Below are positions 9,743-36,027 of a stretch of DNA of 64,000 nt, piece after piece. Origin of the DNA: Thermobifida alba (GTDB taxonomy: Bacteria; Actinomycetota; Actinomycetes; Streptosporangiales; Streptosporangiaceae); NCBI RefSeq assembly GCF_023208015.1, contig NZ_CP051627.1:3233501-3297500 (forward strand), given 5' to 3'. The position numbers were made by a program, and so were the translations under genes. Position 1 is the stretch's first letter; each line of letters begins with the position of its first letter. Below the pieces are notes generated by a model. It ran no database searches and was not told the origin of the DNA. It saw only the letters and a list, made by a program, of their open reading frames with translations.

Positions 9743-11125
9743 GTGCAACTGACCATCCTCGGCGGCGGCGGCTTCCGGGTACCGCTGGTGCACCGGGCGC
9801 TGCTGGCCGACACGCGGGGGCCGGACCCGGCCGTCACCGAGGTCGTGCTGTTCGACACCGCCCCCGAACGCCTGGCCGCGATCCGCGCCGTGCTGGACCG
9901 CCAGCGCGACGCGCACCGGGCCGCGTACGGCGAGCCCCCGCTGACCGTGCGCGTCGCCGACACCCTGGCCGACGCGCTCCGCGGCTGCGCCGTCGTCTTC
10001 TCCGCGATCCGCGTGGGCGGCACGGCGGGCCGGGTGCTCGACGAGCGGGTGGCCCTGGACGCCGGGGTGCTCGGCCAGGAGACGGTGGGCGCCGGCGGCA
10101 TCAGCTACGGGCTGCGCACGGTCCCGGTAGCCGTCGAGATCGCGCGGCTCGTCGAGCGGTTCGCCCCCGACGCGTGGGTGGTCAACTTCACCAATCCGGC
10201 GGGACTGATCACCGAGGCGATGACGGGGGTGCTGGGCGACCGCGTGGTGGGGATCTGCGACTCCCCGGTGGGACTGGGCCGCCGGGCGGCGCGGGCGCTC
10301 GGCCTGGACCCGGCCCGCGTCCACCTCGACTACGCGGGCCTCAACCACCTCGGCTGGCTGCGCGGCCTGTACGCCGACGGACGGGATCGGCTTCCGGACC
10401 TGCTCGCCGACGAGGCCGCGCTGACCTCCTTCGAGGAGGGCCGCCTGTTCGGCGCGCCGTGGCTGCGGGCCCTCGGTGCGCTGCCCAACGAGTACCTGCA
10501 CTACTACTACCTGGCCCGGGAGGCCCGGGAGGCGGTCGCGGGCACCCTCTCCGAGGGCGGCCGCACCCGCGGCGAGCAACTGGTGGTACAGCAGCGGGAG
10601 TTCTACCGGGCGGCCGCCCGGCGCCCCGACGAGGCCCACGACTTGTGGGAGCGGACCCGGCGGGAGCGGGAGGAGACCTACATGGCCGACAACCGCCGCG
10701 CCGCCGGAGGGGTGGAACGCGACGCGGCCGACCTCGACGGCGGCGGCTACGAGCAGGTGGCCCTGGCGGTGATGCGGGCGATCCTCCGGGACGAGCCCGC
10801 CCGGTTGATCGTCAACGTCCGCAACCGGGGCGCCCTGCCCGACCTGGACGCCGACGCGGTGGTGGAGGTGCCCTGCCTGGTCGACGCCTCCGGGGCCCGC
10901 CCCCTGGCGGTCGATCCGCTCGCACCGCACCAGGCCGCGCTGGTGCGGACGGTCAAGGCGGTGGAGCGCGAGGTCCTCGACGCCGTGCGCACCGGTTCGC
11001 GCGCCGCCGCACTGCGGGCCTTCGCCACCCATCCGCTGGTGGACTCGGTGGCCGTCGCCCACCGCCTGCTCGACGGCTACCTGCGGGCCTTCCCCGAACT
11101 GGAACAGGTCCTGCCGGGGGACTAG
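9743..11125 (+). CDS. GH4 family glycosidase (6-phospho-beta-glucosidase-like)
   Basis: 460 aa. GH4 enzymes are NAD+- and Mn2+-dependent and cleave glycosides by a redox elimination mechanism. The NAD-binding turn LGGGGFRVP is at the N-terminus. NFTNPAGLITEA, the metal-site cysteine in GICDSPVG (Cys172) and GLNHLGW (His202) are the family landmarks. Similarity in pattern favours the 6-phospho-beta-glucosidase branch, which fits the PTS enzyme I gene nearby. GTG 9743 is preceded by GAGGAGG. A long perfect hairpin follows the stop. Confidence 0.9.
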   Translation: MQLTILGGGGFRVPLVHRALLADTRGPDPAVTEVVLFDTAPERLAAIRAVLDRQRDAHRAAYGEPPLTVRVADTLADALRGCAVVFSAIRVGGTAGRVLDERVALDAGVLGQETVGAGGISYGLRTVPVAVEIARLVERFAPDAWVVNFTNPAGLITEAMTGVLGDRVVGICDSPVGLGRRAARALGLDPARVHLDYAGLNHLGWLRGLYADGRDRLPDLLADEAALTSFEEGRLFGAPWLRALGALPNEYLHYYYLAREAREAVAGTLSEGGRTRGEQLVVQQREFYRAAARRPDEAHDLWERTRREREETYMADNRRAAGGVERDAADLDGGGYEQVALAVMRAILRDEPARLIVNVRNRGALPDLDADAVVEVPCLVDASGARPLAVDPLAPHQAALVRTVKAVEREVLDAVRTGSRAAALRAFATHPLVDSVAVAHRLLDGYLRAFPELEQVLPGD

Positions 11126-11127
11126 GG

Positions 11128-11162
11128 TCCCTCCACCGATCCCGTCCCCATCGGTGGAGGGA
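11128..11162. terminator. Bidirectional terminator between GH4 and the vWA operon
   Basis: TCCCTCCACCGAT (11128-11140) and ATCGGTGGAGGGA (11150-11162) form a perfect 13-bp stem with a 9-base loop, located between the convergent ends of two transcription units. Confidence 0.85.
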
Positions 11163-11204
11163 GTACTGCACGGCCGCCCCCGCGACCGCGAAACGATCCG
11201 GGGA

Positions 11205-11891
11205 TCACAGGTCCACGTAGTCCAGCGGCACCGACCGGAATCCCTTGACCTCTTCGGCGACCTGGAGCTCCTGCGCCTTGGCCGAGGCGACCATGGAGTT
11301 GAGCAGGCTCGTCAACGCCTCACTCAACGCACCGGCGTTGTCCTGTCCCGGTTCGGCGATGTAGGCGGCGACGGTCGAGACCCGTCCCAGCACCTCGGCC
11401 TGGGCCTCACCGAAACCGTAGGAGATGATGTTGGGCCGCGGCCGCCAGGACGGATCGAGGAGTGCGTCGAGGCTCCTCGTCCACTGTTCGTCGCTGTCGG
11501 TCGGAATACCGTCGGTGAGCAGGAAGACCACGGGCCGCAGCACTTTGATCCCCCGCGCCGAGAGTGCCGGGACGTCGGACTCGATGCAGTCCCGCAGTTT
11601 CCGGAACAGCGGAGCGAAATTGGTGGTGCCCGCGCAACTGACCGTGGGAAGGGTGGTCACGTCGTCGAACTCGGTCATGTTCGTGACCACGTGCGGCTGC
11701 GTGTTGAACGACACCACCGAGAGGTGAATGAACTCCCTGACCTGCGGCGTGGTGTCGATCACCTCATAGATGGACTCCAGAGTCTCGTTGAGCAGCTCCT
11801 CGAACCTCCCCATCGACCCCGAGGTGTCGAGGACGGCGTAGACCGGCAGCCCTTTCTTGAACGGGCCTTCCACCGAGGGGGCAACAGCCAT
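11205..11891 (-). CDS. vWA-domain protein of the TerY type
   Basis: 228 aa, one von Willebrand A domain. The metal-ion-dependent adhesion site is complete: DTSGSM (D22-M27), the Thr of CAGTTNFAPLF and the Asp of FLLTDGIPTD. TerY-like vWA proteins occur in three-gene sets with a PP2C phosphatase and a kinase (TerY-P triads) and are thought to act as metal-dependent scaffolds in stress or conflict responses. It is the last gene of the seven-gene operon, 42 bases after the kinase stop. An AAAGAAAGAG purine run precedes ATG 11891. Biochemical function is not established. Confidence 0.88.
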   Translation of the reverse strand: MAVAPSVEGPFKKGLPVYAVLDTSGSMGRFEELLNETLESIYEVIDTTPQVREFIHLSVVSFNTQPHVVTNMTEFDDVTTLPTVSCAGTTNFAPLFRKLRDCIESDVPALSARGIKVLRPVVFLLTDGIPTDSDEQWTRSLDALLDPSWRPRPNIISYGFGEAQAEVLGRVSTVAAYIAEPGQDNAGALSEALTSLLNSMVASAKAQELQVAEEVKGFRSVPLDYVDL

Positions 11892-11933
11892 GTCTGACTC
11901 TTTCTTTCGAATGGCGGACTGGGCGGACAGATC

Positions 11934-13124
11934 TCAGAACAGCGGGGTGAGAAAGATCAGAGCGAGGCAGAGCGCCACGAGGACGGCCGCGACCACGACC
12001 GCCGGGTGGACGGCCCCCCGCCTGCTCTTCCGGGATGTCGGGGACGCCGTCCGACCGAAGCCGGTGACAGACGGTGTGGGCTGCGGCGCAGAACCCATCG
12101 GCCCGCGGGGCGGACCGCCCTTGACTGCACGCCGGCCGGTGCCGTTCCGGGAGGTCCCGACCGTGCGGAACCCCGTGACGTTGGCCTCCGGGGCCAGCAC
12201 AGGAGGGAAGGGCCCCTCCTCGCCGGGGACCAGGCCGGGCCAGTGCTCTTCCAGGGCCTGCAGCAACTCGGCCACCTCGGGGCGTCTGGCCGGTTCGCTC
12301 TCCTGCAAAGTCCGGTCGAGCAGCCGGGTGAACTCCGAGGAGCGGAGCCGCTTCGGCAGCCGGTCCAGGCTCGTGCTGATCCGGTCCTGGTCCCGGCAGC
12401 CGCTGAGGCCGCGCAGCGCAAGCAGTCCGATCCGGTAACGGTCGGCGTAGACGTCCAGGTCGGTCCCTCGCGGATAGTGGGGATCGTCCCAGTTGTTGGA
12501 CAGGATCCACCCTCGTCGCCCGACACCGCAGGAGTCCATGTCGATCAGGAAGACCCGCCCCTGGCCGGGTTCCCACAGGCCGTTGCTGTAGGACCAGTCC
12601 CCGTAGACCAGGTTGTGGCGGTTCAACACCGCCCCCAGACGCAGGTACCGGATGACCACGGCCGCGCGGATCTCCTCCCCGGGGGCCGGGATCCCCTGGC
12701 GTTTCATGGCCTTGTCGTCCTGGACGAGGTGGTCGACGGTGAGCAGCGCCCTCCTCGTCCTTCCCGTGCGCGGCGACCAGAGGTCGATGGTGAAGCACGC
12801 CGGGGCCCTGGCCATGACCACGCCGACGGTCGTGTCCTCGTCGACCACCCGTGCCACTGGCCAGGCCGCGCTGCGGTCGACGACGGCCCGGTCGGCCGCG
12901 CCCATCCGGTCCGGCAGGGCGATGACCTGGTCCAGCACGGAGGCCTGGGCGGGGGACAGCGGACGTTTGTAGAGCTTGACCAGCCACTCGGGCTGCGTGG
13001 CGAGTGCGTAGACGATGGTGGACTCGCCGCCGTTCTGCCCCAGGACCTCTCCTCTGGCCGACACGTCCCGCGCCGACAGCACCCGGTCGAAGGGGCTGTC
13101 CGACCAGCTCCTCACCTCTTTCAT
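11934..13124 (-). CDS. Tail-anchored protein kinase-like protein (TerY-P triad kinase)
   Basis: 396 aa. Residues about 25-290 show a divergent kinase fold: GQNGGESTIVYAL (glycine loop), WLVKLYK (beta-3 lysine), HNLVYGDWSYSNGLW (catalytic loop in the H-x4-G-D-x4-N form) and FLIDMDSCGV in place of DFG. The catalytic Asp and Asn are retained, so activity is plausible. The C-terminus (about 372-393, AVVVAAVLVALCLALIFL) is a single membrane helix, making it a tail-anchored protein with the kinase in the cytoplasm. ATG 13124 overlaps the phosphatase stop by 4 bases. Its neighbours are a phosphatase and a vWA protein, the TerY-P triad layout. Confidence 0.85.
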   Translation of the reverse strand: MKEVRSWSDSPFDRVLSARDVSARGEVLGQNGGESTIVYALATQPEWLVKLYKRPLSPAQASVLDQVIALPDRMGAADRAVVDRSAAWPVARVVDEDTTVGVVMARAPACFTIDLWSPRTGRTRRALLTVDHLVQDDKAMKRQGIPAPGEEIRAAVVIRYLRLGAVLNRHNLVYGDWSYSNGLWEPGQGRVFLIDMDSCGVGRRGWILSNNWDDPHYPRGTDLDVYADRYRIGLLALRGLSGCRDQDRISTSLDRLPKRLRSSEFTRLLDRTLQESEPARRPEVAELLQALEEHWPGLVPGEEGPFPPVLAPEANVTGFRTVGTSRNGTGRRAVKGGPPRGPMGSAPQPTPSVTGFGRTASPTSRKSRRGAVHPAVVVAAVLVALCLALIFLTPLF

Positions 13125-14476
13125 CGTGTCTCCACGGTCCGGGGCGTCCACAGCACGACCGCCGTCCGGTCGTCGTTGTACTGGGCTTCCTCGTAGCCGA
13201 CCTGCCACAGCAGACCGAGTGCGCTGACCGGGGCCGCCCACTGCTCGGCGAACCAGTGGGCGGCGGAAGGGACCCGCAGTATGTCGCCGAGACCGTCGGT
13301 GGCGAGGACCAGCACCTCTCCGTTGCGGAGCCAGACCTCCGTGGTGCGGACCTGCCGCGGGGTGTTCGGCAGGAAGTGGTGCACCCTTCCCTCGTCGTAC
13401 CCGTGCTCCTTGCCCCCCAGCAGGAGCGTCCACCTGTCCCCGCACAGCTTCCACGCGCTCGTGTCCCCGATTCCCGAGAGCAGGACCCTGCGGAAACCGT
13501 CGGCGCCGGCCCGAGTGGGGACGACGGCGGTCAAGGCCACCGACCGCACGTCGTTCTCCGGGTTCCACCCACGCTGCTGGGCAGCGTTGTACATCTGCCT
13601 CGCAGCGGCGAGAAACGCCTCCTCGGCTCCCAGGAAGTCCACTGATCCCCGCTGGTCGAGTTCCTTGCGGAACGCGCCGACCAGCGCCGCGACGGCCACC
13701 CCGGCTCCCGCATCGGAGTGCTCGCTGTCGGACATGCCGTCGGCCAGTGCCGCGATGACGTGTTCTCCGACCGAGTCACAGCCGAGACGGTAAGCGTCCT
13801 GGCGTGGTTTGCCGACTGTTCCGCCGACTCGGTGGCCCGGTCCGACGACGGAGGCTCCCCGTACCTCCAGATCCCCGATGGTGGCCTGGTCGGCGGCCAG
13901 GCCCGAGTGGGCGGGCCTGGCGGGCAGCCGCCACGGTTCGCCGCTGAGGGAGGACCGCTGACGGAAGAACGGGGGGGCGGGGATTGCCTGCCCGTTCTGC
14001 TCAGCGGGCTCTCCGCTCCCCTCCGGTGCGGCCTCCCGCTCCTCCGTCTGCTCTGCACCGGAGTCGGGAAGTCCCGACTGCCCGGGCAGGAGCGCGGGAC
14101 GTTCTGGTTTTCCTGCCGGACGGCTTGCGCCGGCTGTCCGGGGACGGCCGGGTTTCTCCGCGGCCTCCAGGGAACCTCTCACGGTCCGCTCCTCGCTCCT
14201 GTGGCCTCCTTGAAGGGCGGGAACCGCCAGAAGCACCACCCCGCAGGCGAGCACGGCCAGCAGCGCCGCAACCACGAAAGGCGTCGCCGCCGTGGGCAGG
14301 TACAGCCCGCAGACCACGATCAGCAGTGCCAGCACCACCAGCATGCCGAGCCTTCGCTGCAGGAAGAGCTGTCTTTGCGCCGCGGAGTGGTGCGGGGCCG
14401 CCAGCCACCGCCGACATTCCTTCCACCACCTCGTCCCGACGGACGGGGCAGGGGGATTCGGCCGTCGGTCAGTCAT
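13121..14476 (-). CDS. PP2C-family protein phosphatase with N-terminal membrane hairpin
   Basis: 451 aa. After about 45 residues come two membrane helices (MLVVLALLIVVCGLYL and PFVVAALLAVLACGVVLLAV), then a disordered Pro/Glu/Arg-rich linker, then a PP2C domain (about 220-445). The metal-binding motifs are kept: ALADGMSDSEHSDAGAG, SGIGDTSAW, LATDGLGDIL and NDDRTAVVLW. It probably reverses phosphorylation by the adjacent kinase at the membrane. ATG 14476 overlaps the upstream stop by 8 bases. A longer upstream reading would run through the band-7-like gene in another frame and is rejected. Confidence 0.88.
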   Translation of the reverse strand: MTDRRPNPPAPSVGTRWWKECRRWLAAPHHSAAQRQLFLQRRLGMLVVLALLIVVCGLYLPTAATPFVVAALLAVLACGVVLLAVPALQGGHRSEERTVRGSLEAAEKPGRPRTAGASRPAGKPERPALLPGQSGLPDSGAEQTEEREAAPEGSGEPAEQNGQAIPAPPFFRQRSSLSGEPWRLPARPAHSGLAADQATIGDLEVRGASVVGPGHRVGGTVGKPRQDAYRLGCDSVGEHVIAALADGMSDSEHSDAGAGVAVAALVGAFRKELDQRGSVDFLGAEEAFLAAARQMYNAAQQRGWNPENDVRSVALTAVVPTRAGADGFRRVLLSGIGDTSAWKLCGDRWTLLLGGKEHGYDEGRVHHFLPNTPRQVRTTEVWLRNGEVLVLATDGLGDILRVPSAAHWFAEQWAAPVSALGLLWQVGYEEAQYNDDRTAVVLWTPRTVETR

Positions 14477-15638
14477 CCTGTTCCTCCTGGGCCGTCTTGC
14501 GCCCCACCGACTTCCAGCCCACGACACCGTCGGGCACGGGAGAGGCGTGCTGTGCCCCCGTCCCCGTGTCGAACCGCGGCAGCCCCTGCTGACCAGCCGT
14601 TTCCTGGCCAGCTCCGCTCGGCGGCTCCGGCCGTGCCTCCGACTGCGCTTGCACCGTCTCGCTGGGAGGCAGGAAGACCGCCGGGGGAAGCGCGGAGGGG
14701 GCACCCGGCCCGTCGGACCGCTGAGCGGGCGGCAGTCCGGCACCGGGCGAACGGGTGTCCTCCATGAGCTTCTGGAGTATCGGGTCCGCATCCGCCGGCT
14801 GGATGAGTCCTTTTTCGACCAGTTCCTTGACGAGCTCGATCTTCTGCTGCTGGGTGCGTTCTCCCCGATCCATCCACTCCCGCAGAATCTCGAAAGTCTG
14901 CCCCGGGTTCTCCGCGATCGACCAGCGGAGCAGGCCGGTCTCTTCGTTGGAAGCCGCGGTCGTCAGGTTCTCGAAGCGCTGGCGGACCTGCTCGTTCTGG
15001 TAGTTGTCCCTCATCGTCTGGAGGCCCTGCTGCGTCCTGGCTTCCTGAATCGCCAGGAGTCCTACGCGCTCCTGCTCCTCGTAGGTGCGTTCCAGGCCGA
15101 GCTTCTGCTGCAGGTGGGTCTCTGTCGCCTCGTCCAGGCTGAGCCGCACGTGGCACTCGGTCACTTCGATCCCGAACGGCATTTGCTGGATGAGTGTGCG
15201 GCTGCGGGCGTTCATCTCCTTCTCGGCGTCGGCCCTCTCCTCGATCGCGAACTCCAGCGCCCACGGCCGCATGGCGGTCTGGATGTGACCGCGCAACCGC
15301 ACCTCGACATGGCTCGCGTCGATGATGTTGCGCCGAACGACCTCGATGGGGTCCCAGATACGCCAACCGACGGACAACCGCACCTGGAAGTCGAACCCCC
15401 CGGTGCTGCTGGGGAACTGGTCGTCCCAGGTGAACCCCCAGTCACTGAGGTTCACCTCGTAGCGGTACCGGTAGCGCAGCCGCTCCGACGCGGAGAGCCT
15501 GCGGTTCAGGACAACGGTGTCGCCGTTCTCCAGGGAGAAGACGAATGCCGTTCCGGGGCGCGGATTGCGGCCGCCCTCGAGCAGGGTGACGTTGAAAGGG
15601 CCGTAGACCAGTGGCCTGGACATGGGGGGGTGCGTCAT
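14469..15638 (-). CDS. SPFH/band-7-like protein
   Basis: 389 aa. Residues about 15-190 resemble an SPFH (stomatin/prohibitin) domain: FSLENGDTVVLNRRLS, VRLSVGWRIWDPIEVVRR, and a helical stretch leading to MPFGIEVTECHVRLSLDEA. Residues about 165-290 are helical and Gln/Glu-rich, likely a coiled coil for oligomerisation. The C-terminal 100 residues are Pro-rich and low in complexity. No N-terminal membrane helix is visible, unlike most SPFH proteins, so membrane contact may come through partners. It overlaps its neighbours at both ends (4 and 8 bases). Assignment is by motif pattern only. Confidence 0.7.
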   Translation of the reverse strand: MTHPPMSRPLVYGPFNVTLLEGGRNPRPGTAFVFSLENGDTVVLNRRLSASERLRYRYRYEVNLSDWGFTWDDQFPSSTGGFDFQVRLSVGWRIWDPIEVVRRNIIDASHVEVRLRGHIQTAMRPWALEFAIEERADAEKEMNARSRTLIQQMPFGIEVTECHVRLSLDEATETHLQQKLGLERTYEEQERVGLLAIQEARTQQGLQTMRDNYQNEQVRQRFENLTTAASNEETGLLRWSIAENPGQTFEILREWMDRGERTQQQKIELVKELVEKGLIQPADADPILQKLMEDTRSPGAGLPPAQRSDGPGAPSALPPAVFLPPSETVQAQSEARPEPPSGAGQETAGQQGLPRFDTGTGAQHASPVPDGVVGWKSVGRKTAQEEQDD

Positions 15639-17899
15639 CGGAGCAGCGTCCTCCCGTCAAGCAGAGACAAGACTTCACGTGCTGTGTTCTCGGGGCTGGG
15701 GTGCTCGGCCGAGGCGAACCAGTTCCGGATGAGGTAGTGGAGGATTCTGACGGTGCGGGGTTTGGTGGCGGCGTCCCGGAGGAGTCGGGCCAGCGCCCGT
15801 CGTGCGGCGGGGTTCGCGTCCACGTTCTGCGCCCACCCGGTGAGGATGCTCTGGGCCTCCCCGTACAGGTCGGCGGAGTTGAGCACGGTCTCCCACAGGG
15901 CTCCGACGTTCCTCCGACACACCGGGTCGCGCGTGCTCATGGCCAGCAGCAGCGGCCACTCCTCGGTTCCACCTCCCGGATCCGGTGCGACCAGGTCCGC
16001 TGCGGTGAAGAGGAAGGCGATCTCACCGACCAGTCGGCGCTGCGGATCGTAGGAGTGGACCCAGTGCCTCAGAAGGGTGATGACGTCGCCGCGGCGGTGG
16101 TCGGCTTCCTCGACGAGGTCGGCGACACCGGCTCGGATCGCGTCGACCACGTAGAACTCCGCGGTCCCGGCGAGTTCGTGCAGGAGGGTGAACATCTCCG
16201 CGGCCCCCTGCTCCCCCAGGGCCGCCAGAGCCACGGTCGATCGGGCTGCCGCGGCCTGGAGGAACGGGTTCTCTTCGTTCCCGGCCCACTCCTGGACCAG
16301 GCCGCGCACCTGTTCGGTGAGTCGAGGATTGGCCGCCATGGTGCGGAGGGCGGCCGCCACCGCGCTGTGCCTGCGCGAAACCTCTTCCCGCTTGTTCCGG
16401 GAGGGACGACGGGAGGCCCAGCGCTGCAGCACCGAGGTACGCATCGTGTCGAAGGCCCGGTCGGCGAGTATTCCCACGGCGACGGCAGCCCGGATCGCGA
16501 CCGTCGCCGGTTCTTCCCCCACGCACCGGTACAACCACTCGGGGAGGTGGACGCGGATCTCGTCGTACTCGTCCCAGACGGTGACGAGGACCCTGGCGGC
16601 CATCTCCTGGTCGAGGTAGCGCACCACACGTCGGGGGACTCCTCCGTGCTGTGCGGTGCCCTGCTCCTCGAAGCGTGCGGCGTGCAGGAGCGCGAGCCTC
16701 CGGGCCGCGGTGGAGCGGATCGGCGCCGACCTGGGCTTTTCCGGGTTGTCGATGCTTTCGGGAAGCTGGATCAGGTCCTGGAGTTCCCGGGCTAGGCGGA
16801 CCACGGTCTCATAGGTCTCCCCACCGAAGACGGCGACGGCCAGGGCCAGGCACTGGGTGTCGAGATCGCCCAGTTCTTCGAACCACCGGTCGAATTCGCT
16901 GGTCTCCCGGAGCGCCAGCCGACTGGTGACCTGTTCGAGAACCTTCGCCGCGGGCTCGGAGGCCTTGGCCTCCGCCAGGAGCAGCGCGGCGTCCGCGGCG
17001 CGTCCCAGCCGGGCGAGCGGCCCCTGCTCCCCCACCAGGTCCCTGATCCGGTCGGTGTGGGACAGGAACTCCGCCACCCGGCCCTCGCTGCCGGTGCCGA
17101 GCCGCCACCTCAGGTGGGCTTCCAGAACCTGCAGCGGGGCCACCGACTGGTCCACCTCGACGGCTTCCGCGGCGATCCCGGGGTCGTCCAGTCGGACCTC
17201 GGCTCCCATCGTGACCACCAGCCGGGACCCCTTGGCCTCCAGGATTCCCGCGAGCCGCTGTACCTCGAAGCGGTTGAGCTCGGCCGCCTGACCGCGGGAC
17301 AGGTCCGCCAGCAGGTAACCGGTCTCCCGCTGGAAGTCGTCCTCGCCGAGCTCGCCCAGCGCCGTTCCGGGAGCGAACTCGTACAGCGATCGCAGTCCGG
17401 CGTTGACGAGGACACGGAACGCCAGCGTGGCTTTGCCGCTGCCGGGCTTGCCCCGCAGCAGGAGAACGGGCCGGGAACGCGCGGCTTCTGCGACCACCGG
17501 GAAGCAGGACGGTGTCACGAAGGCCTGAGTGATCTGCCCGTACTTGTCGCCCGCCACCTGGGTCGACGTGACACGGTCGGGTCTAGCGCCCACGACGAAC
17601 TCGAAGTGGTCCCCGCCGTAGGCCCGACCGGCCGTGACCGTGGCCTGACCGAAGGGGGCAGACAGGCCCCGCAACGCGTCGCGTTCGGTTCTGATGCGTT
17701 TGCTGGTGTTGCCCGGTTGTGCGGCGACCGCGGTCAGGCCGTCCCACAACTCCCTGATGTCGGGCCGTTCTTCTTCGGGCGCGGGAGGCGCCTTCTCCTG
17801 CTCTTTCTGTTCTTTTTCTTTCTGTTCTTTCTGCTCTTCGATGGGTGGCTGTCCCGCTCCCGGAGGCTGTCCGGCGACGGAGGGCTCCTCCTGGGTCAC
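15635..17899 (-). CDS. STAND-like P-loop NTPase with N-terminal signalling motif
   Basis: 754 aa. Residues 1-45 are a charged Gln/Glu/Lys run, 45-80 a short helical adaptor. Residues 83-104 hold VTAGRAYGGDHFEF, which closely resembles the C-terminus of the upstream cyclase-like protein. The NTPase follows: VLLLRGKPGSGKATLAF (Walker A Lys156) and the sensor-like RLVVTMGAEVRLDD. Residues about 300-754 are an all-helical array without recognisable repeats and may sense the trigger. The start is GTG 17899, inside a GTGA overlap with the cyclase stop. STAND NTPases commonly act as signal-triggered switches in programmed death and phage defence; that role here is inference. Confidence 0.8.
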   Translation of the reverse strand: MTQEEPSVAGQPPGAGQPPIEEQKEQKEKEQKEQEKAPPAPEEERPDIRELWDGLTAVAAQPGNTSKRIRTERDALRGLSAPFGQATVTAGRAYGGDHFEFVVGARPDRVTSTQVAGDKYGQITQAFVTPSCFPVVAEAARSRPVLLLRGKPGSGKATLAFRVLVNAGLRSLYEFAPGTALGELGEDDFQRETGYLLADLSRGQAAELNRFEVQRLAGILEAKGSRLVVTMGAEVRLDDPGIAAEAVEVDQSVAPLQVLEAHLRWRLGTGSEGRVAEFLSHTDRIRDLVGEQGPLARLGRAADAALLLAEAKASEPAAKVLEQVTSRLALRETSEFDRWFEELGDLDTQCLALAVAVFGGETYETVVRLARELQDLIQLPESIDNPEKPRSAPIRSTAARRLALLHAARFEEQGTAQHGGVPRRVVRYLDQEMAARVLVTVWDEYDEIRVHLPEWLYRCVGEEPATVAIRAAVAVGILADRAFDTMRTSVLQRWASRRPSRNKREEVSRRHSAVAAALRTMAANPRLTEQVRGLVQEWAGNEENPFLQAAAARSTVALAALGEQGAAEMFTLLHELAGTAEFYVVDAIRAGVADLVEEADHRRGDVITLLRHWVHSYDPQRRLVGEIAFLFTAADLVAPDPGGGTEEWPLLLAMSTRDPVCRRNVGALWETVLNSADLYGEAQSILTGWAQNVDANPAARRALARLLRDAATKPRTVRILHYLIRNWFASAEHPSPENTAREVLSLLDGRTLLR

Positions 17900-18687
17900 C
17901 GGCCCTCACCCCGGCCGTGGCTCTCGTAGTGGTTGCCGCCGTACACCTGCTGGGCCTGGATCATCGCTCCCGAGAACGAGCTGAAGTTGGCGGTGTTGAC
18001 GGTGGCCCCGCTCCTCTTCTCGTCTCCGCCGTCTCCCCCTCCGGTCCCACCGGGACGGACGGCTTCCGGTGCGGCGGGCGTCTCCTCCCGTGGCGCGGAC
18101 GGCCCGTGGCCGGGCAGCGCGACCCAGGCCGTGGTGTCCACGGCCTTGACCCTGAAGGGGATCTGCCGGAAGTCCCGGGCGTCGATCTCCGGGTGGTTGC
18201 GGTTGACCACGCTGGAGTACCAGGTGTCGGAGACCGCCAGGACCAGTTCCGCTTCGGGAGAAGAGGCGAGGGCCTCTCGCACCACGGGAAGGTCGAGCAG
18301 GTGGCAAGCGGTGTCGAGGTCGATGCCGACCCACCCGTGGGCGTCGTGGGCGACCTCGCCGGCGTGCAGTGCGACGCGGAGCCGCAGGGCCGCCTGCGGA
18401 CTGCTGACCTGGGCGTAAGCGCGCAACCCGACACGCAGGTAGTGGATGAACCGGGACGTCAGCTCGGTCTTGGGGACGTCGCCCGACAACAGCCAGATCG
18501 CTCCGTCACCGCGGTCCTGGGGGTGGGAGACGGCGGAGGCGTCGATCCCCGCCTCGCGCATCGCGGTGTCCACGATCTCGTACAGTCGCTGACGCAGCCA
18601 TGCCTTGACGGAGTCGGGGCGTCCTCCGGAGTTCTCGGTGTCAACGGCCAGAATGGCGTGGTAACGGGGTTTGACCAGTGCGGCCAT
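17896..18687 (-). CDS. Class III nucleotide cyclase-like protein with C-terminal signalling motif
   Basis: 263 aa. Residues 8-190 match a class III adenylate/guanylate cyclase homology domain: AILAVDTENSG with Asp16, and DRGDGAIWLL with Asp61, would be the two metal ligands. The expected Asn/Arg transition-state segment reads VGIDLDTACHLLDLP, so the Arg position appears to be His. A Gly/Pro linker then leads to a terminal motif (about 230-255: NFSSFSGAMIQAQQVYGGNH). GGAGGA precedes ATG 18687, which is preferred over a longer start at 18756. A Crp/Fnr regulator, a potential cyclic-nucleotide receptor, is encoded 91 bases upstream. Catalysis is uncertain. Confidence 0.78.
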   Translation of the reverse strand: MAALVKPRYHAILAVDTENSGGRPDSVKAWLRQRLYEIVDTAMREAGIDASAVSHPQDRGDGAIWLLSGDVPKTELTSRFIHYLRVGLRAYAQVSSPQAALRLRVALHAGEVAHDAHGWVGIDLDTACHLLDLPVVREALASSPEAELVLAVSDTWYSSVVNRNHPEIDARDFRQIPFRVKAVDTTAWVALPGHGPSAPREETPAAPEAVRPGGTGGGDGGDEKRSGATVNTANFSSFSGAMIQAQQVYGGNHYESHGRGEGR

Positions 18688-18778
18688 CGATTCCTCCGTA
18701 GACGGGGGTCCGGGGAATCCATGAATAGTGGGCGTCCACCGACCGCAACAGGTCAAATGACACAGAGCACCACGGCTG

Positions 18779-19486
18779 TCAGGTCACGTAGGCGTGGAGC
18801 TTCCGGACGTTCAGCACGACGATCCGTTTCCGTCCTGTCGCGACGAGCTCCCTGCGGGTGAGCTCCCTGAGCGCACGGACCACCGACTCCCGGGAGGTAC
18901 CGGCGGCTCCGGCGAGTTCTGCCTGGGTGACGTTCACCTGCAGCACGTCGGCTCCCCAGTCCGATGCTGGTTCGCCGTACTGGAGGACGAGGTCGAGGAG
19001 GACCCGGGCGACACGGATCCCCGCCGTGTGCGCCCCGCTGGCGACACGTTGACCGTCGGAGTGCCGCAGCCGGGTGCTGATGGTGCGCATGACCGCGAAG
19101 CTCAGTTCGCTGTCGCTGTTGAGAAGGGTGAGGAACCGCTCGGCGGTGATGGCGATCCCAGCCACGTCCTGGATGGCGGTGACGGTCGCGGACCGCCTCC
19201 TGCCGTCGAGGCAGGACACCTCCCCGATCAACTCACCTGCTCCTCTGATCGCGAGAAGGCTGGTGTAACCGTTGGGTGCCTGCGCCGTGGTTTTGACCAA
19301 TCCCTTTTCCAGAAAGATGACGCTTTCAGCACGCTCACCCTCACGAATGAGGATTGTCCCCTTTGGCCATGTTTTCCGGAAACCGGATTTCCGAAGTGCC
19401 TCGATGTGCTTCTCACTGAAGGTCGTCCGCACTGCCGCAGCAGGGGTCTTCCGCAATGGTCTCCGCTGCTCCTGGGGGATACTCAC
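18779..19486 (-). CDS. Crp/Fnr-family transcriptional regulator
   Basis: About 235 aa. An N-terminal cyclic-nucleotide-binding-like beta-roll (KGTILIREGERAESVIFLEKGLVK, then GELIGEVSCLDGRRRSATVTA in the phosphate-cassette position) is joined by a long dimer helix to a winged HTH (VTQAELAGAAGTSRESVVRALRELTRRELV). No Fe-S cysteine cluster of the Fnr type is seen. GTG 19486 is chosen because GGAGAG lies 3-5 bases upstream; in-frame GTGs at 19501 and 19537 are alternatives. It heads the cyclase-STAND-band7-PP2C-kinase-vWA operon and is the obvious candidate controller. Whether it binds a nucleotide made by the cyclase-like protein is unknown. Confidence 0.9.
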   Translation of the reverse strand: MSIPQEQRRPLRKTPAAAVRTTFSEKHIEALRKSGFRKTWPKGTILIREGERAESVIFLEKGLVKTTAQAPNGYTSLLAIRGAGELIGEVSCLDGRRRSATVTAIQDVAGIAITAERFLTLLNSDSELSFAVMRTISTRLRHSDGQRVASGAHTAGIRVARVLLDLVLQYGEPASDWGADVLQVNVTQAELAGAAGTSRESVVRALRELTRRELVATGRKRIVVLNVRKLHAYVT

Positions 19487-19537
19487 AGCCTCTCCACTCA
19501 CCGCGACGCCCTCTCCCGCCACCACACGAAAGCACAC

Positions 19538-19820
19538 ATTCCAGATGCAACCGCGATGGAACGGACAGGGACCGGCCCTCCCTACTCACTCACCACCTTA
19601 GAAGACAGACCAGAAAATCGCGTGGAATCAGAAAAACAAGGCTCAGCAGTCACACCGCAACCAACACGCACAAAATGCGAAAAGAGCCGCGGATTTCTTC
19701 AGGATCTCCCCGTCCCCATGAACCCGTTCCCCCGGGCGTGGTCCCGAGGAGGAGCCGGGCCCCTCTCCCCACCATCAGGCCGTTCCCCGTGCGGGTAAGG
19801 CCCCGGCCCCGGGCCCCCGG
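19538..19820. other. Intergenic region, probable promoter of the seven-gene operon
   Basis: About 280 bases with no gene. The part 19610-19700 is markedly AT-rich compared with its surroundings. It must contain the promoter of the Crp-led operon on the minus strand. I found no convincing Crp palindrome (TGTGA-type) and no clear terminator for the L7/L12-like gene, which reads away from this side. Confidence 0.45.
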
Positions 19821-20168
19821 TCACTCCTGTGCGTTCCGCCGGACCAGGGCGACCGCCTCCCTCGCCCGGTACAGGTCCATACCGGTCGCCTCGCGGACCG
19901 CCTCGACAGCCTCGGCCTCCCGGCCCTCCCGCAGCAGGACGCGCACCCTGCCCAGGACGTGCGGCGGCAGCACCGGCTCCTGTCCGGTGGACTCCGCCGG
20001 AGGCGGCCAGTACCCGCCGACGCCGTCCGCCCCGGACAGGGAGTCCACGTCGTCCGCGTCGAACGCCCGTCCTCCCCGGTACTCCGCTCCCCAGCGCACG
20101 ACCGCCATCCCGACCGCCATCACCAGGACCGCCCCAAGCAACGCGACCAGCATCAGCAGCATGCTCAT
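19821..20168 (-). CDS. Membrane protein with L7/L12 C-terminal-like domain
   Basis: 115 aa. Residues 2-25 form one membrane helix (LLMLVALLGAVLVMAVGMAVV). After a low-complexity linker, residues 67-113 (VLGRVRVLLREGREAEAVEA, then VREATGMDLYRAREAVALV) resemble the alpha/beta C-terminal domain of ribosomal protein L7/L12, where a similar helix binds translation factors. Such membrane-tethered domains are widespread in actinobacteria without known function. The first of two near-adjacent ATGs (20168) is used. The gene stands alone, divergent from thioredoxin. Confidence 0.75.
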   Translation of the reverse strand: MSMLLMLVALLGAVLVMAVGMAVVRWGAEYRGGRAFDADDVDSLSGADGVGGYWPPPAESTGQEPVLPPHVLGRVRVLLREGREAEAVEAVREATGMDLYRAREAVALVRRNAQE

Positions 20169-30243: not shown

Positions 30244-30981
30244 ATGGAAACGACGATGGGTGGCGGCGAGCGCAAGTACGAGCGGGTGGCGCGGATCATC
30301 CGCGAACGCATCGCCTCGGGGGTCTACCGGCCGGGGGACGCTCTTCCCTCAGAAGGGAAGTTGAGCGAGGAATTTGCGGTCTCGCGGCCCACGGTGATCA
30401 ACGCCCTCAACGTGCTGCGGGATGAGGGGCTGATCTACACCCAGACCGGTTCGGGCTCCTACGTGCGCGCAACCAAACCCAAGGTCGCCGAGGAGTCGGC
30501 TCGCCCCGGCCTGGAACTGTTGGAGGGCTCTGAGGAAGAGCAGGCAGCCGAACTACTGCAAGCCGGGATCGTAGTGGCTCCTCCTAGGGTGGCCGGTCTG
30601 CTAAGCCTCCCCGCTCCGGCCAAGGCGTTCCTACGTCAGTATGTGATCAGCGATGATGACGGGCCAACCGAGCTGGTCTCCGCCTGGTTTCCGCTGGAAC
30701 TGGCTTCCGGTACGCGGTTCGCCTCCCCTGAACCTCTGGGACCGAGCATCCGCCGTCACCTCTTCGAACGCAAAAAGATCCGCTTGGACTACGCGGTGGA
30801 GCGCACCATCGCCCGTGCGGCCACGCCAGAGGAAGCCCAGGTGTTGGAGATCGCGGTCGGCGCTCCGGTGCTCAACATCGTGGTGACGGGGCACGACGTC
30901 GACGGCACGGCCCTTCAGATGATCGACGCTGTTCTTCCCGGCGATCGGCACGAACTTCGGGACGTCTACCCACTCCACTAG
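30244..30981 (+). CDS. GntR/HutC-family regulator of the AICE (KorSA-like)
   Basis: 245 aa. N-terminal winged HTH (IIRERIASGVYRPGDALPSE, then FAVSRPTVINALNVLRDEGL, residues about 14-75) and a C-terminal UTRA ligand-binding domain (about 95-240, ending with VLNIVVTGHDVDGTALQMID). In pSAM2-like elements a GntR repressor (KorSA) silences pra and transfer genes. Flanking repeats containing CTATCA/TGATAG support autorepression and control of the downstream pra gene. ATG 30244 is used; ATG 30256 is an alternative. The inducing ligand is not known. Confidence 0.9.
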   Translation: METTMGGGERKYERVARIIRERIASGVYRPGDALPSEGKLSEEFAVSRPTVINALNVLRDEGLIYTQTGSGSYVRATKPKVAEESARPGLELLEGSEEEQAAELLQAGIVVAPPRVAGLLSLPAPAKAFLRQYVISDDDGPTELVSAWFPLELASGTRFASPEPLGPSIRRHLFERKKIRLDYAVERTIARAATPEEAQVLEIAVGAPVLNIVVTGHDVDGTALQMIDAVLPGDRHELRDVYPLH

Positions 30982-31009
30982 TCCTGTCAGAAATACCATT
31001 GATCCGAAC

Positions 31010-31087
31010 TTGACCTATCAGGTCCGCACCCCTACCCTCGAACCACAACCTGACCTATCAGGTTGTGGTTCTTCTCGTTTCTGATAG
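31010..31087. promoter_or_regulatory. Operator/hairpin region between GntR and pra
   Basis: GACCTATCAGGTC near 31012-31024 is a palindrome. A second TGACCTATCAGGT sits in the loop and arms of a 12-bp hairpin, GAACCACAACCT (31040-31051) with AGGTTGTGGTTC (31060-31071). A third TGATAG lies at 31081-31086 just before pra. The hairpin can terminate the GntR transcript while the repeated half-sites form operators. Confidence 0.55.
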
Positions 31088-31102
31088 ATGGGATTTGGCC
31101 TG

Positions 31103-31504
31103 ATGGCGATTCAGGGTGCGTTGCCGGTGGCGTTTGGGACGGTGTTTCCGCATGGGGCGTTCGCGTTGGGGGTGGAGGCGGTGACGAACTTCGAGACCAA
31201 GCGGCCGGAGGTGGACCGGGAGACCGGGTTGCCGTTGTGGGCGGTGGAGGTGATCGACGCCGACCCCAACGCGCGGGGCAAGGCCAAGTCGGTGAAGGTC
31301 AAGGTGGCGGCCGAGGTCTGCCCGACCCTGCCCGATGAGGTGGCGGGGCTGCCGTTCCGGCCGGTGGAGTTCGAGGGCATGTCGGTCATGCCCTACGTGG
31401 ACGACAACGGCCGTCGCCCTCGGGTGGCCTACTCGCTGCGGGCGCGCGGCCTGAAGGCTCCCGGCGCTGGTGCGCGCCGTGGTGCGGCCAAGGACGCCGC
31501 CTAG
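31103..31504 (+). CDS. pra: Plasmid replication, integration and excision activator (Pra-like)
   Basis: 133 aa from ATG 31103 (an in-frame ATG lies at 31088). The sequence MAIQGALPVAFGTVFPHGAF, followed by ALGVEAVTNFETKRPEVDRE and PFRPVEFEGMSVMPYVDDNG, matches the pattern of Pra, the pSAM2 activator of rep, xis and int. It is probably the switch that turns on replication and excision when the GntR repressor releases. The C-terminal 25 residues are Ala/Gly/Arg-rich and variable. Operator-like repeats lie directly upstream. Confidence 0.85.
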   Translation: MAIQGALPVAFGTVFPHGAFALGVEAVTNFETKRPEVDRETGLPLWAVEVIDADPNARGKAKSVKVKVAAEVCPTLPDEVAGLPFRPVEFEGMSVMPYVDDNGRRPRVAYSLRARGLKAPGAGARRGAAKDAA

Positions 31505-31619
31505 CTCCTGACAAGCAAGCGGGGCGGCCTGGTGCTGCAACACCGAGCCGCCCCTTCAACCCCTCCGTATTTCCGTTCGGCTTGCCAACCGATGAACCAC
31601 AGAAGAGGTGTGTCTGATT

Positions 31620-31874
31620 ATGGCTGACCAGCCGCCTCCCGTCTCCCCCCGGGAGATCTCCGAGTTCCTGGCCCTGGTCCGCGAACGCTCCACGAACCGC
31701 GTCCCGTCGACTCCGGCCGAGGACGTGGTGTTCTTCGAGCGCAAGGCGGACCTGCTGTCCCGGATCGCCGTGCACTCCTTCGACCCCGAGGCGGTGGAGG
31801 TGGCGGCGATCGCCCGGGCCCAGCTCGACGCGGCCCGCTCCCGCCTGGCCGACTCGGCGGGGGGTGGGTGCTGA
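31620..31874 (+). CDS. Small AICE protein upstream of tra
   Basis: 84 aa from ATG 31620 (GTG 31608 would add four residues). Pro-rich N-terminus followed by two helices (EISEFLALVRERSTNRVPST, and VEVAAIARAQLDAARSRLAD). Small proteins of this kind regularly precede the FtsK-like gene in AICEs; no function is assigned. AGAAGAGG at 31601-31608 is the ribosome site. The stop shares a base with the tra start (TGATG), implying coupling. Confidence 0.72.
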   Translation: MADQPPPVSPREISEFLALVRERSTNRVPSTPAEDVVFFERKADLLSRIAVHSFDPEAVEVAAIARAQLDAARSRLADSAGGGC

Positions 31875-33334
31875 TGTGGTGGTCTCCTCGCCCGGCCGCC
31901 CAGCAGGTGTCGGTGACCACGCCGGTTCCGGCGCAGGCGTTCCGGTTCGCCACGCCGGTGCTGCCCACGCCGGTGGCGTTGATCGTGGCCCGCTGGCTGG
32001 CCCGACTGGTGGTCCTGGTGGTGGGGCTGCCGTTCCGCTTCCCCATCGCCACGGTGGCGGCTGTTGTCTCGTTCCTCGTCTGGCACTGGTTCGGCTGGGT
32101 GGTCGTGGCGGTGGCTTGGTCGCTGGTGGATGTGGGGTTGTTGGTGTGGTGGCGGCGCTGGCCTTCCTCGTTTCGCCGGTGGGTGGGGCTGCGGCTGCTG
32201 GCCGCTTGGCGGTGGTGGTGGGTGTATGCCCGTCAGTGGCAGCCGGTGCTCGTGGTGGCGGGGTTGGCTGAGACCTACCAAGAGCGCCAGTACCTTCCCA
32301 GGATTCGGCGGGTGACGTGTTCGGAGTGGGCCGACCGGGTGCGCGTGCGCCTGGTGGCGGGCACGACTCCCGCGGACTTCGAGAACCGGGTTGCCGAGTT
32401 GGCGCACGGGTTCGGCGCGCCCTCCTGCCGGGTGACCGTGCTGGGGCCGCGGGATGTGGTTTTGGAGTTTCCCCGCTGGGACACCCTCGCCGAACCGATT
32501 ACCGCGCTCGACGTTCCGGCCGTCCCTGACCTCGGCGCACTGCCCGTGGGGCTTCAGGAGGACGGCACACCGTGGCGGCTCAGGTTGCACGGCACGCATG
32601 TGCTGGTGGTGGGGGTGACCGGCTCGGGTAAGGGCTCGGTGATCTGGTCGGCGATCCGCGCCATGCTTCCGGCCCTGGAAGACGGAACCGCGCAGGTGTG
32701 GGCGGTGGATCCCAAGCGGATGGAACTGTCCTACGGCCGCTCCCTGTTCGCCCGGTATGCCGACACGGGGGAAGCGGCGGTGGCCCTGCTGGAAGACGCG
32801 GTGGCCGAGATGCAGAACCGGGCCGAACGCTACGCCGGACACCGACGCTCCCACACTCCCACGACCGAGGATCCGTTCGTGGTGGTGGTGTTGGATGAGG
32901 TGGCGTTCCTGACCGCCTACCACCCCGACCGGGACGTGCGGCGTCGCGCGGAGAACGCGATCGCCACGCTCACATCCCAGGGGCGTTCGGTGGGGTTTTG
33001 CGTCCTGGCGGCGTTGCAGGATCCGCGCAAGGAGGTCATGAACCTGCGCAACTTGTTCCCTGACAAGATCGCCCTGCGCCTGGACGAAGCGAGTCAGGTC
33101 GACATGGTGCTCGGCGAGGGGGCACGCGACCGCGGCGCCAATGCTCACCTGATCGATCCGGCCCTTCCTGGGGTGGCGTTCGTCCGGTTGGAGGGCTCGC
33201 CCATGCCGGTACGGGTGCGGGCGGCGTATGTGTCCGATGGCGACATTGACGCTATGGCGGCCGAGGTCGAACAGGACTCCTTGGCGGCTTCGATGGTGAC
33301 GGCGACCCTGCGCGTGGTGGAAGGGGCCGCGTAG
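31874..33334 (+). CDS. tra: FtsK/SpoIIIE-type DNA translocase for conjugal transfer (TraSA-like)
   Basis: 486 aa. Residues about 35-125 contain membrane helices (ALIVARWLARLVVLVVGLPF, TVAAVVSFLVWHWFGWVVVA). The motor domain has Walker A GVTGSGKGS (Lys253), VDPKRMELSYG and Walker B VVVVLDEVAFL, with a sensor segment SVGFCVLAALQDPRKEVM. In AICEs this single protein moves double-stranded DNA between hyphae. ATG 31874 shares a base with the upstream stop; GTG 31868 is possible. The rep-int gene starts immediately after its TAG, so the two are co-transcribed. Confidence 0.93.
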   Translation: MWWSPRPAAQQVSVTTPVPAQAFRFATPVLPTPVALIVARWLARLVVLVVGLPFRFPIATVAAVVSFLVWHWFGWVVVAVAWSLVDVGLLVWWRRWPSSFRRWVGLRLLAAWRWWWVYARQWQPVLVVAGLAETYQERQYLPRIRRVTCSEWADRVRVRLVAGTTPADFENRVAELAHGFGAPSCRVTVLGPRDVVLEFPRWDTLAEPITALDVPAVPDLGALPVGLQEDGTPWRLRLHGTHVLVVGVTGSGKGSVIWSAIRAMLPALEDGTAQVWAVDPKRMELSYGRSLFARYADTGEAAVALLEDAVAEMQNRAERYAGHRRSHTPTTEDPFVVVVLDEVAFLTAYHPDRDVRRRAENAIATLTSQGRSVGFCVLAALQDPRKEVMNLRNLFPDKIALRLDEASQVDMVLGEGARDRGANAHLIDPALPGVAFVRLEGSPMPVRVRAAYVSDGDIDAMAAEVEQDSLAASMVTATLRVVEGAA

Positions 33335-35887: not shown

Positions 35888-35893
35888 GCGCGT

Positions 35894-35912
35894 GTTAGCA
35901 AGGGCGTTAGCA
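35894..35912. repeat. Paired GTTAGCA repeats near attR (putative integrase arm sites)
   Basis: GTTAGCA at 35894-35900 and 35906-35912, again 12 bases apart in direct orientation, just beyond the integrase stop and 18 bases before the attR repeat. Confidence 0.6.
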
Positions 35913-35929
35913 AAGGGCCTCCCCCATCG

Positions 35930-35996
35930 CTGGGAGAGGCCCTTCGACCTGGGAGCCGCCTGTGGGAATCGAACCCACGACCTACGCATTACGAGT
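35930..35996. repeat. attR, 67-bp direct repeat within tRNA-Thr
   Basis: Identical to attL at 26733-26799. This copy supplies the 3' portion of the intact tRNA-Thr gene together with part of its terminator hairpin, so integration preserved tRNA function. Confidence 0.93.
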
Positions 35997-36027
35997 GCGT
36001 CGCTCTGGCCGACTGAGCTAAGGCGGC
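35954..36027 (-). tRNA. tRNA-Thr (anticodon CGT)
   Basis: 74 nt on the minus strand. GCCGCCT at the 5' end pairs with AGGCGGC at the 3' end, discriminator T. D-arm TAGCTCAGTCGGCCAGAGC, anticodon loop ACTCGTAAT with CGT, T-arm GTGGGTTCGATTCCCAC. The CCA end is not encoded. It is the integration site of the AICE and is followed on its 3' side by a hairpin (AAGGGCCTC.../...GAGGCCCTT). Confidence 0.97.

Follow-up and report, generated by a model that had tools for sequence, protein, structure and literature searches.

Several described bacterial systems resemble parts of an operon in a 64,000-nucleotide stretch of Thermobifida alba DNA (the window; contig NZ_CP051627.1, positions 3,233,501 to 3,297,500, assembly GCF_023208015.1), where it occupies positions 11205–19537 of the minus strand. 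Bacterial amyloid signalling sequence (BASS) systems carry one motif at the C-terminus of an effector and at the N-terminus of an NLR encoded by the adjacent gene (PMC7889193, PMC12261475); PMC8086366, on such NLR–effector pairs, is a further source of comparison. PMC7159879 describes, as the third theme of GAP1-N2 DO-GTPase systems, an actinobacterial kinase (with a zinc ribbon or transmembrane helices), a PP2C phosphatase and a stand-alone vWA protein; its section on the theme mentions no STAND, cyclase or SPFH protein. TerY-P triads unite vWA, PP2C and Ser/Thr kinase (PMC11090510), and Pycsar supplies other parts for comparison (PMC11224242). An earlier note on this DNA held that the window's combination is not a named system, and none of the literature matches listed describes it, which is not proof of absence.

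In the operon, a cyclase-like protein and a STAND-like protein carry a common motif. The last ~40 residues of the former and the N-terminal region of the latter share ~18–25 residues that vary between loci and agree within each locus. We lean towards reading the operon as an accessory signalling module at the membrane, built along NLR-like lines, with motif-based assembly at an SPFH scaffold and a kinase/PP2C output. Its features are as follows.

11116..19831, no strand: 8.7-kb insertion between two convergent genes, with the operon as its sole content
18779..19537, minus: Crp/Fnr-type regulator with cyclic nucleotide monophosphate (cNMP)-binding domain and helix-turn-helix (HTH) (Pfam cNMP_binding 2e-18, HTH_Crp_2 4.4e-16)
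17896..18687, minus: class III nucleotidyl-cyclase-like protein, 263 residues, with disordered linker and C-terminal motif
17923..17976, minus: cyclase C-terminal motif FSGAMIQAQQVYGGNHYE, residues 238-255, pairing with the STAND N-terminal motif
15635..17899, minus: STAND-like protein with degenerate P-loop, its C-terminal half possibly HEAT-like
17600..17653, minus: STAND N-terminal motif FGQATVTAGRAYGGDHFE, residues 83-100
17429..17452, minus: degenerate STAND P-loop GKPGSGKA, with A where S/T is expected
14469..15638, minus: SPFH/band-7 protein without a hydrophobic segment of its own (hydropathy; AlphaFold2 (AF2) model and Foldseek)
13121..14476, minus: PP2C phosphatase with N-terminal hydrophobic region (Pfam PP2C_2 1.1e-16)
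11934..13124, minus: divergent Ser/Thr-type kinase with C-terminal hydrophobic anchor and no zinc ribbon
11205..11891, minus: stand-alone vWA protein (Pfam VWA 1.4e-6; DTSGSM/TDG motifs read in the sequence)
11129..11161, no strand: 12-bp inverted repeat 3' of the vWA gene, a possible terminator read by eye

The window's motif pair, FSGAMIQAQQVYGGNHYE / FGQATVTAGRAYGGDHFE, scores 48, a value reached by 0 of 200 shuffles; the corresponding pairs are HFANAHVRADKVVGGDEITYL / NLTGARVRAQKVVGGDEITYI in locus L016 and GGGTVHGTQNNISGNRISGGFHLGG / GGGTVRGDQNNIAGNQISGDVFLGG in L057. Related loci were chosen by STAND or SPFH similarity, and locus counts rest on resemblance to seed genes taken from these loci themselves; they describe this sample and are not a census. 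Setting aside L015, L070 and L071, which have no called STAND gene, leaves 51 of 54 loci, window included. Pairing was first scored in 23 loci with a cyclase open reading frame close upstream of the STAND reading frame by first-round profiles: own pairs averaged 52.9 versus 29.4 for other pairs (0 of 20,000 permutations). STAND segments in this set may include some out-of-gene translation, which was limited in a 50-locus test of any gene preceding STAND (L059 was left out, its upstream gene lying on the other strand). There, own pairs averaged 53.1 versus 28.0 (0 of 10,000 permutations), the own partner ranked first among the 50 for 25 loci, and in 35 of the 50, including 12 of the 13 triad loci defined below, at most 1 of 200 shuffles reached the match.

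Pairing persisted when loci were thinned by STAND identity. Below 60, 45 and 35% (18, 14 and 8 loci), 0, 0 and 7 of 20,000 permutations reached the observed value, and the own partner was best in 9/18, 7/14 and 6/8 loci. Control segments showed no pairing: the tail of the gene after STAND (1062 of 10,000 permutations), the gene two upstream (8437) and the middle of the partner (2315). Some 250–300 bases separate the STAND motif of the window from the 4-base cyclase/STAND overlap, so the match is not an artefact of overlapping genes.

Predicted structure supports a class III cyclase fold for the cyclase-like protein. Its AF2 model (predicted local distance difference test, pLDDT, 82.6) matches Cya2/3mr7 in Foldseek at E 2e-8, and the cyclase-family profile A2 matches PDB 3mr7, a solved class III cyclase, at E 1.8e-4; the tail is modelled with low confidence, as disordered segments are. 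Class III cyclases depend on a pair of metal-binding aspartates and on an Asn and an Arg acting on the transition state. The window protein falls short of this full catalytic set by two residues: the aspartates D16 and D61 are kept, whereas the transition-state Asn is replaced by D125 and the Arg by H129. All four residues are kept in 5 of 25 cyclases, the L060 type among them; both metal aspartates are gone in L017, L020, L021 and L027, and one in L014. The STAND P-loop is degenerate: GK[ST] occurs in 1 of 32 aligned STAND proteins, window included, and the window reads GKA. Since the window has lost cyclase residues and has a degenerate P-loop, signalling by assembly appears likelier than cNMP synthesis. 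Weak HEAT matches were found in 2 of 7 STAND homologues, and a PDB profile search with the STAND alignment gave no match.

The order cyclase–STAND–SPFH–PP2C–kinase–vWA is identical in 13 loci including the window (the triad loci), and 6 of the 8 loci first fetched already had it; the further triad loci came from a related-locus search and a class-level genome search. L022, L023, L025 and L028 were left out as duplicates of L017, L013, L014 and L016, and the L012 kinase, skipped by gene calling (which also truncated the window's Crp), was counted from earlier locus comparisons. Identity to the window's proteins is 22–51% overall where aligned: 31–46% for STAND (six proteins aligned), 23–31% for SPFH (13 proteins) and 33–47% for the kinase (11 proteins). 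Because 13 six-gene loci share one order, the association lies far above chance, in keeping with a single operon as the earlier note proposed. Its seven-gene set stands for the six-gene core and holds only in part for Crp, which is nearby in only 7 of the 13. In three (window, L012, L016) Crp lies directly upstream of the cyclase; in four (L017, L020, L021, L027) it comes downstream, after vWA and another cyclase-like gene. Crp was not seen in the other 6 triad loci, among which L013 stops at a contig edge.

Downstream of vWA, each of those four loci carries two further cyclase-like genes and the Crp gene. The last of these cyclases was aligned for L017, L021 and L027, and all three have retained the second metal aspartate. 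In L014, L018, L024 and L026, conserved genes precede the cyclase, with weak AAA_16 matches (Pfam run on L018 only).

At the level of gene anatomy, the earlier note correctly placed seven minus-strand genes at 11205–19537 and a 42-base gap between kinase and vWA. Its overlaps of 4-8 bases between cyclase and kinase are also there; they number four, not five (4, 4, 8 and 4 bases). The Crp gene, whose start codon is uncertain, has no overlap: 91 bases separate its end from the cyclase ATG at 18687, and the spacing is 22 bases if the cyclase starts at the TTG at 18756. Pfam recognised the Crp, PP2C and vWA proteins in its scan of the window and gave no match for the window's cyclase-like or kinase protein; NCBIfam gave none for its STAND, cyclase-like, kinase or band-7-like protein. 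Scans of the window returned no sigma-70 promoter, 6 terminator-like sites versus 3.4 expected—the 11129..11161 repeat is absent from these sites, a T tract being required—and 7 matches to the Crp site TGTGA-N6-TCACA with at most 2 mismatches versus 11.5 expected, i.e. no enrichment.

All 13 PP2C homologues have intact metal-binding motifs, the window's vWA domain passes the Pfam cut-off, and kinase residues K50, D176, N181 and D195/D197, the catalytic Asp/Asn among them, are invariant in the 12 aligned (L012 lies outside the alignment). By simple hydropathy, the kinase ends in a hydrophobic segment in 13 of 13, in line with the proposed tail anchor. Two claims fared worse: a two-helix phosphatase is not a general feature, hydrophobic helices preceding the PP2C domain in 5 of 13 homologues only (simple hydropathy), and the set is no standard TerY-P triad, with no CxxC in any of the 12 aligned kinases. 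The kinase family profile matches PKC iota weakly (E 0.04).

Structure prediction also backs the band-7-like platform of the earlier note, suggesting an SPFH fold followed by a long helix. The AF2 model (pLDDT 75.8) matches HflK/C best in Foldseek (E 2.2e-7), with prohibitin, QmcA, flotillin and stomatin chains also found. The SPFH domain alone aligns with stomatin 4fvj_B at a target-normalised TM-score (TMt) of 0.72 over 113 columns (root-mean-square deviation 2.8, E 1.2e-3); whole-chain scores are low (query-normalised, TMq, 0.26-0.38 in ranks 1-34). At the sequence level the family matches little: none of 14 band-7-like proteins has a Pfam match up to E 0.01, the window's protein has one sub-threshold Pfam match, to an unrelated model, and a PDB profile search with the SPFH alignment gave no match. 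The kinase tail anchor and the SPFH fold together are consistent with a membrane-associated set, as had been proposed.

STAND and SPFH form the constant core of a wider, modular family: SPFH follows STAND in 47 of 51 loci. The gene before STAND is a cyclase in 37, SARP-like in 4, TIR-like in 4, a small protein in 3 and another gene in 3, with Crp two upstream of STAND in 23 of 51; Pfam finds BTAD (SARP) in L085 and L093 and TIR in L064. The second gene after STAND is the triad PP2C in 13 loci, a second kinase triad in 5, DUF4407 in 6, PycTM in 4, OmpA-type in 3, and another gene or none in the rest. Pfam confirms DUF4407 in L067 and L069 and the OmpA-type protein in L087; on L079 it recognises the kinase and vWA of the second triad and not the PP2C-like member. 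Genes beyond the core pass the Pfam cut-off for PycTM in L057, L060, L063, L065 and L066, all downstream, and one does so behind the triad locus L013. The earlier note overlooked this placing of the triad as one of several outputs, together with the motif pairing, the loss of catalytic residues and the degenerate P-loop. We give about even credence to a combinatorial signalosome family in which a P-loop-degenerate STAND and SPFH core would use a locus-specific prion-like motif to recruit a pseudo-cyclase, TIR or SARP partner and pass the signal to interchangeable membrane outputs (an anchored kinase/PP2C/vWA switch, the Pycsar pore PycTM or DUF4407), the window's cyclase serving as scaffold partner and not as enzyme.

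Two related loci carry unusual long genes. In L059 (1587-7634), STAND-SPFH is followed by a 2016-residue protein that, by eye, begins with a TIR-like stretch. In L063 (395-4012), a PycTM-type locus has downstream of it a 1205-residue gene resembling the tubulin-like one of L021.

In its host species the operon is an accessory 8.7-kb insertion. A DNA search with the flanks found them separated by 25 bp in G001 and G002 and by ~139 bp in G003, and alignment places the insertion where two convergent genes meet, between their stop codons. The housekeeping operon common to relatives that the earlier note had set against its own proposal is not what we observe: the site is empty in all three same-genus genomes. 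The inserted segment, 11116–19831, holds no called gene besides the operon; no recombinase gene was seen in it, and inspection by eye found no clear direct repeats at its ends. The band-7-like protein is present in the window's genome and in 0 of 20 relatives; across the order it occurs in 9 of 150 genomes, own included, by single-sequence searches that detect close homologues. With the STAND profile, relatives turn up more widely, in 66 of the 150 order-level genomes and in 22 of 197 at class level; matches above 900 bits occur in 7 of the 150, and all 7 have the triad. A tblastn search with the SPFH protein found no plasmid-borne copies.

Set beside BASS, the window shares overlapping genes, a motif at the partner's C-terminus and the NLR-like protein's N-terminus, and an actinobacterial host. 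It differs in that the partner is cyclase-like and not Bell, the STAND P-loop is degenerate, SPFH and kinase/PP2C/vWA are added, and the motif gave no match to a Pfam family. On sequence, the locus has the paired motif of a BASS-type NLR signalosome and may be a further form of the NLR-like conflict systems that signal by amyloid; as far as our searches show, the combination has no name.

The GAP1-N2 likeness lies in the kinase, PP2C and stand-alone vWA of the block. In L017, L020, L021 and L027 the block stands behind a DO-GTPase2-type gene, by Pfam in L021 and by similarity in the others; the L021 match is just above the Pfam cut-off, and that locus also has a Tubulin_2 gene and a sub-cut-off kinase. 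G151 (L014) and G090 (L018) have DO-GTPase2 matches below the cut-off, ~7 kb upstream of the block. Some of these DO-GTPase-linked relatives may be among the loci counted in PMC7159879. As a GAP1-N2 system the window itself was rejected: its insertion contains no DO-GTPase, and the sole DO-GTPase2 match in the genome is far off at 2344843 (GAP1 was not searched). The block also occurs in G039 and G023, genomes that give no DO-GTPase2 match at E 0.001; because they and the window have the block without a nearby, or any, DO-GTPase2, the block is independent of DO-GTPase.

With Pycsar the window shares a cyclase-like gene and a cNMP-binding Crp, and its relatives share the PycTM effector; it differs in a partly degenerate cyclase that is not PycC-like by PADLOC, in the added STAND and SPFH, and in a genome without PycTM. 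We rejected Pycsar membership on the missing PADLOC PycC match, the 0 PycTM matches in the genome and a Crp that matches PycTIR only over the cNMP-binding domain.

Under the NLR-like reading, a trigger sensed by the STAND-like protein would lead to its assembly, and its N-terminal motif would template or capture the cyclase-like tail in a homotypic, probably amyloid-like manner, as in BASS. The SPFH protein would cluster this STAND–cyclase assembly at the membrane, where it would flip an antagonistic kinase/PP2C pair, with vWA as a metal-dependent adaptor. The flipped pair would alter membrane or cell activity, giving growth arrest or death during attack by phage or another agent; we infer a role in defence or regulated arrest. 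Crp would adjust expression, and it may sense a cyclic nucleotide. Relatives have this core ahead of the pore-type effector PycTM, or of DUF4407 or OmpA-type proteins, instead.

A Pycsar-like circuit, in which Crp and an effector read a cyclase product and STAND controls the cyclase allosterically, would account for several of the same features, and we judge it unlikely. PycTM follows the core in five loci and yet has no match in the window's genome; likewise, the window cyclase keeps D16 and D61, as 5 of 25 cyclases keep all four residues, but has D and H at the transition-state positions, and metal aspartates are lost in L017, L020, L021 and L027, with one lost in L014. Of the 24 non-triad loci whose cyclase adjoins STAND, 23 have Crp near that cyclase. 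The window's Crp reads GELIGEVSCLDGRRRSA, which we take to resemble a cNMP pocket signature; a loose form of the pocket pattern fits 26 of 33 called Crp genes. Against the PADLOC PycTIR models Crp scores E 1.7e-11, over the cNMP-binding domain only (an HTH is present and a TIR domain is not), whereas PADLOC finds nothing up to E 0.1 for the window cyclase and, for that of L012, only a weak PycC match (E 0.0022). An envelope-stress or developmental operon without a defence role, SPFH and kinase/phosphatase tuning membrane or cell-wall enzymes, strikes us as quite unlikely. Eukaryote-like kinases govern growth in actinomycetes, and the SPFH fold, kinase tail anchor and DUF4407/OmpA genes after the core in relatives would suit such a role; a core stress operon, however, would not be expected as a clean insertion whose close homologues are patchy (9 of 150 genomes, the wider STAND family being commoner at 66 of 150), and the TIR and PycTM parts of relatives point to conflict.

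It is very improbable that the motif match mediates nothing and is a by-product of gene conversion or of shared ancestry of disordered tails: the motifs are short stretches rich in Gly, His and Asn, and 15 of 50 loci lack a match, but matching persists below 35% STAND identity and extends to some unrelated partners and not to control segments. That the set is a genuine TerY-P triad, of the kind tied to tellurite or DNA processing, is barely credible. This reading would explain why vWA, PP2C and kinase genes lie side by side, as they do here; the kinase bears a hydrophobic anchor instead of a zinc ribbon, which rules out standard membership, and the seven operon genes include no restriction or ter gene.

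Several results weigh against the NLR-like assembly reading itself. The STAND assignment, upheld from the earlier note, lies below Pfam cut-offs (NACHT 0.012, nSTAND3 0.04), and PADLOC, run to E 0.1, matched none of the six core proteins of the window and, among the relatives' core proteins tried, only the L012 cyclase, weakly, to PycC. More than 1 of 200 shuffles reached the tail match in 15 of 50 loci, triad locus L058 included, and partners other than cyclases match in 1 of 4 TIR, 3 of 4 SARP and 0 of 3 small-protein loci. For the window, the cyclase tail scores higher with the STAND of other loci, its own STAND ranking 2 in the 23-locus and 3 in the 50-locus set. Ten motif segments matched no Pfam family, amyloid motifs included, in a search in which one query was inexact and HMMER filters drop weak matches, and 8 of 13 PP2C homologues lack hydrophobic helices.

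If the assembly reading is true, amyloid NLR signalling, TerY-P-like phospho-switches, Pycsar effectors and SPFH microdomains would be joined in one modular system, bearing on prion-like templating as a control of kinases and pores at a membrane scaffold; motif matching within loci would then be a natural specificity code.

Other mobile or insertion-prone regions were noted. At 30244-36027 the window holds a pSAM2-like integrative element adjoining tRNA-Thr, with a GntR/UTRA regulator, an FtsK-like gene and one 837-residue reading frame in which a RepSA replication initiator domain precedes a phage-type integrase domain. In L060 (6144-18039), a Crp-cyclase-STAND-SPFH version with PycTM lies between rpsL and rpoC, confirmed by Pfam. 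L057 and L061 occupy the same position by gene sizes only, with PycTM in L057 and none called in L061, and the rpsL–rpoC interval looks like an insertion hotspot for STAND–SPFH loci.

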